From contig WRJO01000008.1 of NCBI GenBank assembly GCA_009778545.1, positions 1-36,149 of the forward strand: a stretch of 36,149 bases of DNA. The letters run 5' to 3'. Position numbers and translations under genes: made by a program. Numbering within the stretch: the first letter of the stretch is position 1; each line of letters begins with the position of its first letter. This DNA is from Treponema sp. (lineage in GTDB: Bacteria; Spirochaetota; Spirochaetia; Treponematales; Breznakiellaceae). Below, in pieces: positions 32,264-36,149 of the stretch. The notes beneath the pieces are model-generated. The model searched no databases. It saw only the letters and a program-made list of their open reading frames with translations, and was not told the origin of the DNA.

Positions 32264-33447
32264 CCGAGTCCGGCCCCGCCCGCCTCCTCTGGCTTTTAAA
32301 GCCCGGCGAGCTGGCCCTGAAAGGGGAGAACCGCAGGGCCTTTGAGATAGTCCTGAAACGCAACCTCCAGACGATACTTGCGGGGCATGACGTACAGATC
32401 GTTATGCGAAACGGCCGCTTCTACGTGCACGGCCTGGAAGAGGATTCTGCCGCGATAGAAAACGCCCTGGATCGCCTGTTTGGAATTTCCGGCTGGGCGC
32501 AGACCAGGGGGATTCCCAAAACAATCGAAGCGGTGCTTGCCGAATGTGCAGCCGAAGCGAAAAAAATCCACGCGCGGGGCATCGCGTCATTCAAGATTGA
32601 GGCGCGGAGGACCGACAAAAGCTTCCCCTTCGATTCGTATGCCCTCAGGTGCAGGGGCGGGGACGCGGTGACGGACGCCGTTCCCGGTTTGCGGGTCGAC
32701 GTTCAAAATCCCGGCGCGATTATCACCATCGAGATACGCGAAAAGGCCTATGTCTACAGCGACGCCCGCAAAGCCCTTGGCGGCCTGCCCGTCGGAACCG
32801 CCGGCAGGGGACTTTTGCTCCTGTCCGGCGGCATCGATTCCCCGGTCGCCGGTTTCCTCATGGCTTCGCGCGGCATGGGGATCGACGCGGTACATTTTCA
32901 CGCCTACCCCTACACCTCGGCGGAGGCGAAACAAAAGACAATCCGGCTCGCCGGAATCCTCGGCGGCTACTGCATGGGTGTGCGTCTGTACATACTGGGT
33001 TTTACTAAAATACAGATGCGGATAAAAGAAGCATCCCCCCTCCCCTGGTCTACGGTGCTGCTCCGCATGGCGATGATGCGCTGCGCCGAAACAATCGCCA
33101 AAAGAAACGGCAACAAATGCATTATTACCGGCGAAAGCCTTTCCCAGGTGGCGAGCCAGACCATAGAAAACATCAGTTGCACCCAAAACGGAATCTCGAT
33201 CCCCGTGCTGCGTCCCCTCATCGGCACAGACAAGGAATCCATCATCAGAAAAGCTGAACAGATCGGCACATACAAAATTTCCATCGAACCGTATGAAGAC
33301 TGCTGCGTCCTATTCAGCCCGCCGCGTCCCATCCTGCGCGGCACTGTTGCCGAAGCCGCAGAACTCTACCGCTCGCTTGAACTAGAGCCGCTCATTGAAG
33401 AAGCAATCAGGAATTATGAAACGGTAAAATTGGGGACTGGGGGTTAG
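32254..33447 (+). CDS. thiI: tRNA 4-thiouridine synthase ThiI, probable ATT start
   Basis: A 397-residue ThiI, which adenylates uridine 8 of tRNA and takes sulfur from a desulfurase; also used for thiamine thiazole. The N-terminal LWLLKPGELALKGENRRAFE, a THUMP domain (~60-165), the PP-loop LLLSGGIDSPVAG (S191-S196) and the C-terminal GESLSQVASQT and DCCVLFSPPRP blocks are all present; there is no rhodanese domain. No ATG, GTG or TTG exists in frame before residue 51, yet the conserved N-terminus is encoded. GGAGG at 32242-32246 stands seven bases before an ATT at 32254, the probable start, overlapping the desulfurase end by 10 bases. The tail LGTGG and the stop come from the heptamer repeat. 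Its last ~480 bases recur at 34691. Confidence 0.9.
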   Translation: MSVTESGPARLLWLLKPGELALKGENRRAFEIVLKRNLQTILAGHDVQIVMRNGRFYVHGLEEDSAAIENALDRLFGISGWAQTRGIPKTIEAVLAECAAEAKKIHARGIASFKIEARRTDKSFPFDSYALRCRGGDAVTDAVPGLRVDVQNPGAIITIEIREKAYVYSDARKALGGLPVGTAGRGLLLLSGGIDSPVAGFLMASRGMGIDAVHFHAYPYTSAEAKQKTIRLAGILGGYCMGVRLYILGFTKIQMRIKEASPLPWSTVLLRMAMMRCAETIAKRNGNKCIITGESLSQVASQTIENISCTQNGISIPVLRPLIGTDKESIIRKAEQIGTYKISIEPYEDCCVLFSPPRPILRGTVAEAAELYRSLELEPLIEEAIRNYETVKLGTGG

Positions 33448-33463
33448 GGACTGGGGACTGGGG
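33432..33463. repeat. CCCCAGT-type heptamer repeat at the thiI stop
   Basis: GGGGACT-type units with a GGGGGTTAG insert. The TTAG provides the TAG of thiI on the plus strand and the TAA of the 33444-33641 fragment on the minus strand. An identical copy is at 35153-35184. Confidence 0.85.
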
Positions 33464-33641
33464 TGTTGGGCTCAAAGTACTCATGCAGGGCTAGACTGCC
33501 CGGGTCATCGCCGGCAATCTTGATTTTATGGCCCAGGATTTCGAACTGGTCGCCCGGTATAAAGATCGTGTTTACCGAATTTTCATCAAAGTCGATGAAT
33601 TCGTCGATATAGACAAAATTTAATCGTAACAAAATTTTCAA
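33444..33641 (-). pseudogene. Fragment resembling a DUF4469-type C-terminus
   Basis: A 65-codon minus-strand stretch whose middle (FIPGDQFEILGHKIKIAGDD) resembles the end domain seen in some HU-like DNA-binding proteins (DUF4469). The N-terminal half is missing and the first ~20 residues do not match. The tail NTPVPSP and its stop are encoded by the heptamer repeat. No ribosome site or promoter is seen. It is most likely the tail of a broken gene. The family match is from memory of the pattern and is moderate at best. Confidence 0.4.
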
Positions 33642-33904: not shown

Positions 33905-34225
33905 ATGGAGAATATTTCTGAAAGACTAGATACAATCAAAGAATCTGTCCTCAAGAATGTACCGGCAAAATATATATATTTATTCGGTTCTTATGCTTAT
34001 GGTGAGCCGACTGAAAAAAGCGACATAGATATTTACATTGTTATTCCCGATAATAGTATCAATATTTCAGAAATTTATGGGAAAATAATGGTAGATTTGA
34101 GCATAAAGAAAATATTTTTTGTGGACTTATTGTTGAACAGGGAAAGCGTGTTTAATACAAGGAAAAATAGAAATATCCTTGAAAGAACAATTTGTCAAAA
34201 AGGTAAAATATTATATGAACATTGA
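33905..34225 (+). CDS. Minimal nucleotidyltransferase (MNT), probable antitoxin
   Basis: A 106-residue Pol-beta-fold protein with GSYAYG at 28-33, the metal-binding S39-D40-I41-D42 and a third acidic residue D74 in FFVDLLL. MNT proteins paired with HEPN ribonucleases neutralise the toxin, in the studied HepT-MntA pair by adding AMP to it. The companion HEPN gene overlaps its last 11 bases, the usual order. The A+T content is visibly higher than that of thiI and the other housekeeping genes, a sign of separate origin. All catalytic residues are present, so it looks active. The message is probably leaderless. Confidence 0.88.
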   Translation: MENISERLDTIKESVLKNVPAKYIYLFGSYAYGEPTEKSDIDIYIVIPDNSINISEIYGKIMVDLSIKKIFFVDLLLNRESVFNTRKNRNILERTICQKGKILYEH

Positions 34226-34655
34226 CGATGTAACAGAATGGATACAGATCGCCGATGATGATTTGTATTCCGCCCAAATGCTTGATAAACTTGTTCGTAA
34301 ACCTTATGAAATAATTTGCTATCATTGTGCCCAAGCAGTGGAAAAATACCTGAAAGGCTATTTGACGTATTATGACATTATACCACAGAAAACGCATAAT
34401 TTGCTTATTCTGCTTGAACTCTGTGTGGAAAAAGATAGTTTTTTTGAAAATATTAAAACTGGATGTGGAATATTGAATAGATACGCTAATGAAATACGTT
34501 ATCCGCACAGAATAGAAATAGAGATAGAAGATGTGAATTATGCCATTAAAGTAACGGAAAAGATTAGAGATATAGAACCACTAAGAAAAATAAAAGAAAT
34601 CATTAATGAGGCAAATATTAATAATAATTATATTGATGAAGAACATAAAGAATAG
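34215..34655 (+). CDS. HEPN domain protein, probable toxin
   Basis: A 146-residue HEPN protein (PF05168-like): WIQIADDDLYSAQML at the first helix, CAQAVEKYLKGYL at ~38-50 and the RYPHR signature at 95-99. HEPN toxins cut RNA with an R-x4-6-H motif; here the basic pair is R95 and H98 (R-x2-H), with R89 also near, so the canonical spacing is not clear. I chose the ATG at 34215 over a TTG at 34179 because family members start just before the W-x-x-A-x-x-D-L helix and AAGGT stands upstream. It overlaps the MNT end. The strong A+T bias matches its partner. Confidence 0.85.
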   Translation: MNIDDVTEWIQIADDDLYSAQMLDKLVRKPYEIICYHCAQAVEKYLKGYLTYYDIIPQKTHNLLILLELCVEKDSFFENIKTGCGILNRYANEIRYPHRIEIEIEDVNYAIKVTEKIRDIEPLRKIKEIINEANINNNYIDEEHKE

Positions 34656-34690: not shown

Positions 34691-35168
34691 CTGCATGGGA
34701 GTACGCCTGTACATCGCCGGTTTTACTAAAATACAGATGCGGATAAAAGAAGCATCCCCCCTCCCCTGGTCTACGGTGCTGCTCCGCATGGCGATGATGC
34801 GCTGCGCCGAAACAATCGCCAAAAGAAACGGCAACAAATGCCTTGTTACCGGCGAAAGCCTTTCCCAGGTGGCGAGCCAGACCATAGAAAACATCAGCTG
34901 CACCCAGAGCGGAATCTCGATCCCCGTGCTGCGTCCCCTCATCGGCACGGACAAGGAAACCATCATCAGAAAAGCCGAACAGATCGGCACATACAAAATT
35001 TCCATCGAACCGCATGAAGACTGCTGCGTCCTATTCAGCCCGCCGCGTCCCATCCTGCGCGGCACTGTTGCCGAAGCCGCCGATCTCTACCGCGCGCTTG
35101 AACTAGAGCCGCTCATTGAAGAAGCAATCAGGAATTGTGAAACGGTAAAATTGGGGACTGGGGGTTAG
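34691..35168 (+). pseudogene. Duplicated 3' end of thiI
   Basis: From 34691 the sequence matches thiI from base 32970 onward, for 494 bases including the heptamer repeat, with no indel and about 20 substitutions (~96%). The frame is intact for 157 codons from the internal ATG at 34695, but the THUMP domain and PP-loop are absent, so it cannot be a working enzyme. Nine of the ~20 differences are silent and most of the rest are mild (I to L or V, S to T, E to D), so the two copies seem to have diverged while both were coding. The left breakpoint is at CTGCATGGG; the preceding 34656-34690 is not recognised. Confidence 0.88.
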
Positions 35169-35184
35169 GGACTGGGGACTGGGG
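35153..35184. repeat. CCCCAGT-type heptamer repeat, second thiI copy
   Basis: Identical to 33432-33463 and again supplies the TAG of the upstream frame. After it the two copies differ, though faint similarity (a GGCTC/ACTCA pattern) continues for ~20 bases. Confidence 0.85.
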
Positions 35185-35220
35185 TATCAGGCTCCAGGCA
35201 CTCACCTTGTACAGAACAAT

Positions 35221-35434: not shown

Positions 35435-35485
35435 ATGAAAATTGGCATAGGCAGAAATGTAGAATTAATATTTTTTGATAAATGA
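35435..35485 (+). CDS. 16-codon open frame behind a strong ribosome site
   Basis: AGAGGAG at 35422-35428 lies six bases before an ATG, and the frame MKIGIGRNVELIFFDK ends at TGA 35483-35485. It is too short to assign. It could be a leader peptide, or the 5' stump of a gene broken when the downstream cassette was inserted at 35502. Confidence 0.25.
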   Translation: MKIGIGRNVELIFFDK

Positions 35486-35502
35486 AATTCAGATATAAGA
35501 CG

Positions 35503-36149
35503 TTATGCGAAATATGGGCTAAACTGGTTGTAAAATATAAGAATATAAAAATTAAGGTATTGTAATAATATAAATATTGGAATATTATGGTTTTATAAAA
35601 TTTTTTGGAGGGTTAAATCATGGAAAATAATATATTTTTTGAAACATTAAAAAAAGAAGATATAAATCAATATTCAAATATGATTAATAATGTATTTGAC
35701 GAATTTGTTGGAAAGGATTATTCTGAAGAAGGAAATAATATTTTTAAGAATTTTATTAAACCGAATAACATATTAGATAGATTTAAAAATGAACTAAATA
35801 AATTTTTTGTTGCAAAATATAATAATGAAATAATTGGTGTATTGGAAATAAAAAATAATGATCATATTTCATTGTTTTTTGTGAAAACTGAATTTCATGG
35901 GCAAGGAATAGGAAAGAAATTATTTCAAAATTATATGGAAACAATAAAAGACAATAATAGTATAAAAATTATATCTGTAAATTCTTCAATATACGCAGAA
36001 AAAATATATTCAAAATTAGGATTTAATAAAACCAGTGAAATACATGAAAAATGTGGAATGAAAATTGTTACAATGGAATATAGAATATAAAAAATGGTGT
36101 ACGCCCATACTTCGCATAACGAAGTTGCTGAAAAAGTTGCAACTGCGCA
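35503..36149 (+). mobile_element. Probable integron gene cassette (attC cut by window end)
   Basis: The left edge is G|TTATGC at 35502-35508; the right side has GCATAAC at 36114-36120. They belong to a longer inverted match: CGTTATGCGAAATATGGGC (35501-35519) against GCCCATACTTCGCATAACG (36103-36121), 18 of 19 paired. This is the geometry of a cassette whose attC begins with RYYYAAC-like GCATAAC and whose first bases are TTATGC after the crossover G. After 36121 the sequence continues with a possible L arm (GAAGTTGC ... GTTGCAAC). The left side has no attC from an earlier cassette, so it is either first in an array or inserted at a secondary site. No integrase is in the window. Confidence 0.5.
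35620..36090 (+). CDS. GNAT family N-acetyltransferase
   Basis: A 156-residue acetyltransferase. The acetyl-CoA loop is HGQGIGKKL near 98-106, preceded by the beta-4 strand HISLFFVKTEF and followed by the YAEKIYSKLGF block near 130-140. The acceptor is not predictable; cassette-borne GNATs modify antibiotics, polyamines or proteins. GGAGGG seven bases before the ATG is a strong ribosome site. Base use is extremely A+T-rich with Asn and Lys codons AAT/AAA dominating, quite unlike the rest of the window. It lies inside the putative integron cassette. The A+T-rich stretch 35520-35606 contains several TATAAA-like blocks but no clear promoter pair. Confidence 0.9.
   Translation: MENNIFFETLKKEDINQYSNMINNVFDEFVGKDYSEEGNNIFKNFIKPNNILDRFKNELNKFFVAKYNNEIIGVLEIKNNDHISLFFVKTEFHGQGIGKKLFQNYMETIKDNNSIKIISVNSSIYAEKIYSKLGFNKTSEIHEKCGMKIVTMEYRI

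Follow-up and report, generated by a model that had tools for sequence, protein, structure and literature searches.

The closest described relatives of the system analysed here are the chromosomal integrons of the Treponema denticola type, the XerA/XerC-like recombinases and the Vibrio superintegron (VCR). In the view of Escudero et al., the I2 element of the integron integrase occurs in IntI alone and is the innovation that enabled recombination of folded single strands (PMC7790495, PMC4792948), and for the authors of IntegronFinder the extra domain is what distinguishes IntI from other integrases (PMC9024848). Because recognition of IntI relies on this extra domain, cassette systems whose integrase lacks I2 would probably be missed. 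Smyshlyaev et al. (2021) noted incomplete conservation of the insertion in their integron-like subgroup (PMC8138268), and Wu et al. (2013) reported termite-gut treponemes in which no integrons were found (PMC3607928). We found no paper describing cassette arrays with I2-less integrases in the literature searched, preprints and subscription journals being outside our reach.

We analysed a stretch of 36,149 nucleotides from Treponema sp., here called the window, which is the entire contig C8 of the source genome (G000). The window shows cassette ends, cargo and an attI-like flank (Table 1), and relatives carry complete arrays with attC-like junctions beside a XerA-like recombinase that lacks I2. 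We infer recombination, and consider it likely that the last part of the window is the first cassette of an integron-like array, in which a XerA-like, I2-less integrase captures cassettes through an extended stem formed by each cassette's own ends.

Table 1. Features of the window, and the candidate recombinase on another contig of the same genome
Feature	Position	Strand	Remarks
attI-like site, left flank of the putative first cassette (GATAAATGAAATTCAGATATAAGAC / GTT)	35477..35501 (approx.)	+	similar sequence stands between the integrase and the first cassette of relatives, one example being AAATGAAATTCATCTACAAGGA/GTTAAG (G032:C30)
Cassette left end: R'-like core GTTATGC plus 11-nt extension	35502..35519	+	pairs with its own right end except at position 11 (A35512); same architecture in relatives
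GNAT acetyltransferase gene, 156 aa, cassette cargo, oriented as the cassette	35620..36090	+	PF13673, 118.9 bits (cut-off 23.6)
Cassette right end: extension plus R''-like core GCATAAC	36103..36120	+	in relatives the L'' and L' arms come after it, then the next GTT
Probable insertion sequence/MITE end within the AAC of R'' (GAAGTTGCTGAAAAA...)	36121..36149 (29 nt)	+	exact match to AACGARGTTGCWGAAAAA; remaining attC past the contig end
Candidate recombinase of G000 itself, 391 aa	G000:C35:332-1504	-	near the contig end; then an attI-like sequence and GTTAAGCGCAAG

The inverted arms lie at 35501-35519 and 36103-36121, with 18 of 19 nt complementary and a spacing of 583 nt; the core GTTATGC starts at 35502 and GCATAAC occupies 36114-36120. 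The whole window holds no second pair of 19-mers with at most one mismatch at a spacing of 200-1500 nt, and dinucleotide shuffles yielded such an inverted pair in 0 of 60 trials on the whole window and 0 of 500 on its last 2 kb. An earlier note on this DNA, made from the letters alone, had reported the 18/19 inverted match, a GNAT gene between the arms, and pairing that continues beyond the seven-base core, and all three observations hold. The GNAT protein has no specific NCBIfam equivalog match at or above cut-off. The first cassette of G032:C30 (L077:674-1147-) also encodes a GNAT protein, with 27% identity over 88 aa to that of the window. A search against Rfam returned tRNA only.

Taken by themselves, inverted ends matching at 18 of 19 positions resemble terminal repeats, and the unit might be read as a small transposon or MITE whose 18-bp terminal inverted repeats enclose the GNAT gene. 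We regard this as very improbable. The flanks (AAGAC and GAAGT) show no target duplication, and the left one is attI-like. In relatives, moreover, the units follow one another head to tail, conserved inner arms lie between them, and they always join at GTT/AAC; their ends are private to each unit, not common to a family.

With the cassette DNA as query, its ends were found in many MAGs of the same genus. Four of these genomes (G011, G007, G030 and G010) carry complete arrays of head-to-tail cassettes that have the same ends and inner arms of 155-172 nt. The integron-like cassette proposed in the earlier note is supported. The arrays of relatives contain the attC boxes R'', L'', L' and R', and the attC in this genus measures about 170 bp. 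On G011:C3 the recombinase gene is followed by a first cassette that runs from GTTATGTGCAATACGGGCTAAACTGGTTGG to GGGGTACGCCCGTACTGCACATAAC, after which come 155 nt of inner sequence and then the following GTTATGC; contig G011:C86 has nine to ten consecutive junctions. The left and right ends of the window cassette (GTTATGCGAAATATGGGCTAAACTGGTTG and GGTGTACGCCCATACTTCGCATAAC) are those of G011 cassettes. The window itself holds a single cassette, and of the attC boxes it has no more than R'' and the 5' end of the cassette itself; the contig stops at 36149 within the attC, which an insertion sequence seemingly interrupts. No further cassettes were found in G000, a fragmentary MAG of 1.99 Mb in 135 contigs with a completeness of 68%, by the conserved left-end or attC patterns tried. 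The sequence GTTATGCGAA, with 25 copies in the genome (control 3), was considered as a cassette marker and rejected, as nearly all copies look coding.

After GCATAAC the window reads GAAGTTGCTGAAAAAGTTGCAACTGCGCA, which the earlier note took for the beginning of an arm-like sequence. An attC arm was set aside here in favour of the end of an insertion sequence. Outside the window genome, AACGARGTTGCWGAAAAA occurs only in G025 among 40 genomes of the genus, with 30 copies there and none of a reversed control pattern. Most of the copies read out sit after the AAC of R'', several of them exactly there, and are followed by a second AAC and a normal attC arm, the arrangement that an insertion with a 3-bp duplication would be expected to give. 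A longer copy of the G025 element begins a transposase ORF, with a sub-threshold match to HTH_Tnp_4. The tail of the window is thus most likely such an insertion element, which would also account for the contig stopping at this point; the element would have entered the attC after the cassette was placed. In G025 the short IS/MITE, with ends GA[AG]GTTGCAGAAAAACTG, lies in the R'' AAC of attC sites at about 30 places (e.g. L121, L122, L133, L156 and L157), with AAC repeated on the far side, and it seems to target this cassette system.

The pairing of cassette ends was examined in 15 cassettes and 22 junctions, all defined by their inner arms alone. Within a cassette, the left and right ends agree in 147 of 150 comparisons at positions 8-10 and 12-18, the best of 20000 end permutations reaching 117, and the ends of neighbouring cassettes match much more poorly. 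Position 11 matches in none of the 15 cassettes: on the top strand it is A on the left and C on the right, which on the bottom strand becomes T against G, a G.T wobble. Own-end pairing ceases beyond position 18. Since R pairing has been described as extending to 9-11 nt (Bouvier et al. 2009, PMC2727003), pairing over 18 nt lies well beyond the published range. In another family (L116, on G057:C12) nearly one end sequence (TGATTTTTCTTG) is common to all cassettes, as in the Vibrio superintegron, whereas cassettes of the window's genus have private ends.

With DNA parameters, and as predictions for naked single strands, not for folding in cells, the mean fold of the 15 cassettes is -63.7 kcal/mol for the bottom strand of the circle, -56.3 kcal/mol for its top strand and -52.2 kcal/mol for the bottom strand of the array junction. 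As in known attC sites, the predicted folds have an R stem and an asymmetric spacer; the L'' arm bears one extrahelical base, and the terminal structure is branched. They share with VCR attC sites, as defined in PMC2727003, the great length, the branched terminal structure, the unpaired central spacer and the extrahelical base. They differ from them in that the published R pairing totals 9-11 nt, compared with the 18 nt seen here, where the paired sequence is different in each cassette.

The recombinase on contig C35 scores 204.4 against TIGR02249 (cut-off 265) and 214.5 against XerA_Arch (cut-off 220). The distance from KGxKDR to HxLRH is 59 residues, compared with 100 in IntI; the alignment has a gap at I2, and in the comparison with IntI4, nothing matches its residues 173-250. 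This recombinase therefore lacks the IntI-specific additional domain (I2), a criterion of the canonical integron. Its best structural relatives by sequence are the XerA/XerC-like recombinases (NF040815; PDB 4a8e and 5hxy), with which it shares an I2-less domain layout. Unlike them, the enzyme of this system adjoins an attI and cassette arrays, falls below the XerA_Arch cut-off and, in most spirochaete loci, has an N-terminal extension of about 110-120 residues. The extension was considered as a reader of the longer stem, an idea weakened by a Bacillota integrase of 290 aa (L177) that lacks it and still has cassettes with extended pairing. A tree of 116 proteins (IQ-TREE) separates an IntI clade (100/99), a XerC/XerD clade (100/100) and a clade of I2-less spirochaete recombinases (100/97), the branching order among the three being poorly supported. 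With its cassettes, attC-like junctions, attI-like site and dedicated tyrosine recombinase the system resembles an integron, but its integrase sets it apart from the IntI integrons.

The earlier note had pointed to the chromosomal integrons of T. denticola, and the window might indeed belong to an ordinary integron of that type, with intI missing from the assembly and the extended pairing incidental. Both kinds of system have a G^TT/AAC core, a 3' attC, an attI, covariation of the R boxes within a cassette and, in most loci here, an integrase pointing toward attI; core and orientation are those of Treponema integrons (PMC3607928). Canonical IntI also occurs in the same order, where 10 of 60 genomes have a protein over the curated cut-off. 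None of these, however, belongs to the same genus, although many genomes of the genus are more than 90% complete, and the recombinases adjoining the arrays lack I2. The canonical arrays of the order differ as well. In G041 and G038, where attC sites were located by their known arms, the attC is 63-68 bp long and a cassette's own ends match through position 8 only; from position 9 to 18 there are 51 matches in 198 comparisons, 48.7 being expected by chance. The fixed mismatch at position 11 is likewise peculiar to the present system. We therefore judge an ordinary T. denticola-type integron to be quite improbable, and the link drawn in the earlier note is not supported.

In relatives, as on contig C35, the gene for the I2-less integrase is followed by an attI-like sequence and GTT. 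The 25 nt 5' of the GTT in the window resemble these first-cassette flanks (GAAATTC..., then GTT), and on this account the window cassette looks like the first of its array, a possibility the earlier note had raised. Crossover at the attI-like site is expected after G35502. No integrase gene or remnant was detected in the window by tblastn. Because some relatives have two or three I2-less integrases each, the site may be a platform that lost its integrase or a second attI at which the enzyme of C35 acted; the cassette was probably placed by the C35 integrase or by a lost copy.

Farther to the left in the window, the 3' half of thiI is duplicated (32970-33483 and 34691-35204; 514 bp, 95% identical), and an MNT nucleotidyltransferase gene (33905-34225) and a HEPN gene (34179-34655) lie between the copies. 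In most relatives thiI gives a single match, with neither the duplication nor the MNT/HEPN insert. In L105 (G023:C76), thiI and a shortened gene for an I2-less integrase are no more than 2 kb apart, suggesting that the region around thiI in the window may be the old site of an integron.

The association of paired ends with I2-less recombinases was surveyed under one fixed rule, by which ends of 18 nt had to pair with no more than 3 mismatches at a distance of 250-3000 nt. The loci were taken from the 80 best hits of a single scan, so that the frequencies are not population estimates. Loci of the same order with an I2-less gene yielded 23 end pairs in 15 of 28 loci, often with the gene directly before the attI-like site, and those of other phyla (Bacillota, Bacteroidota, Patescibacteria and others) 16 pairs in 12 of 56. 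By the same rule, none of 23 loci with an I2-bearing IntI (247 kb) had such a pair, and block-shuffled controls gave 2 pairs in total. The A/G signature at position 11, for which there was no selection, appears in 17 of the 23 same-order pairs and 14 of the 16 others, and is thus not universal. In about 10 of the 28 same-order loci no cassette could be detected close by, although some of these loci have several kb of contig left. In the Bacillota MAG HGW-Firmicutes-8 (L177), four such cassettes stand in tandem and the 290-aa recombinase is divergent from them. The integrase is divergent from the cassettes in L100 and L108 also, while in most spirochaete loci it points toward them; the orientation of the gene is flipped within the I2-less family.

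These cassettes could in principle be moved by the host XerC/XerD or by the IntI of other cells, the adjoining I2-less recombinase having some other role. XerC and XerD occur in the genus and could be the real catalysts, and Escudero et al. 2016 (PMC4792948) point out that the CTX phage integrates by means of XerCD, on a folded stem that has no extrahelical bases. We nevertheless think this unlikely, given that the I2-less gene and a cassette share one short locus in more than half of the same-order loci, and that the I2-less clade is separate from XerC/XerD.

Returning to capture by the I2-less integrase, the recombinase would cut at G^TT/AAC and take up circular cassettes at attI. In the circular form a cassette's own ends flank its own inner arms and would pair over 18 bp, giving a long, nearly perfect stem on the bottom strand. 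The mismatch at position 11, A.C on the top strand and a G.T wobble on the bottom, may help in the choice of strand. After insertion the right end would meet a foreign left end, only the core would pair, and the fold would be weaker, which would favour capture over loss. Covariation and predicted folding point to this scheme of an extended bottom-strand stem that weakens once the cassette is inserted; pairing that served the linear cassette, with the cassette as a loop, would produce the same covariation.

We suggest tentatively, and with somewhat less than even confidence, that these loci represent a second widespread class of integron, spread over several phyla, with long self-complementary ends and integrases that never had the I2 helix, and that IntI arose once within this radiation. 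If so, I2 is not needed for cassette capture, and intermediates in the transition from Xer to IntI are still living. If I2-less recombinases do move cassettes, the origin of integrons would be directly testable with living relatives, and the private pairing of ends over 18 bp would be a simple and testable way of favouring capture over loss. The pool of mobile cassettes in these spirochaetes, and in Bacteroidota, Bacillota and Patescibacteria, would then be larger than is now counted.
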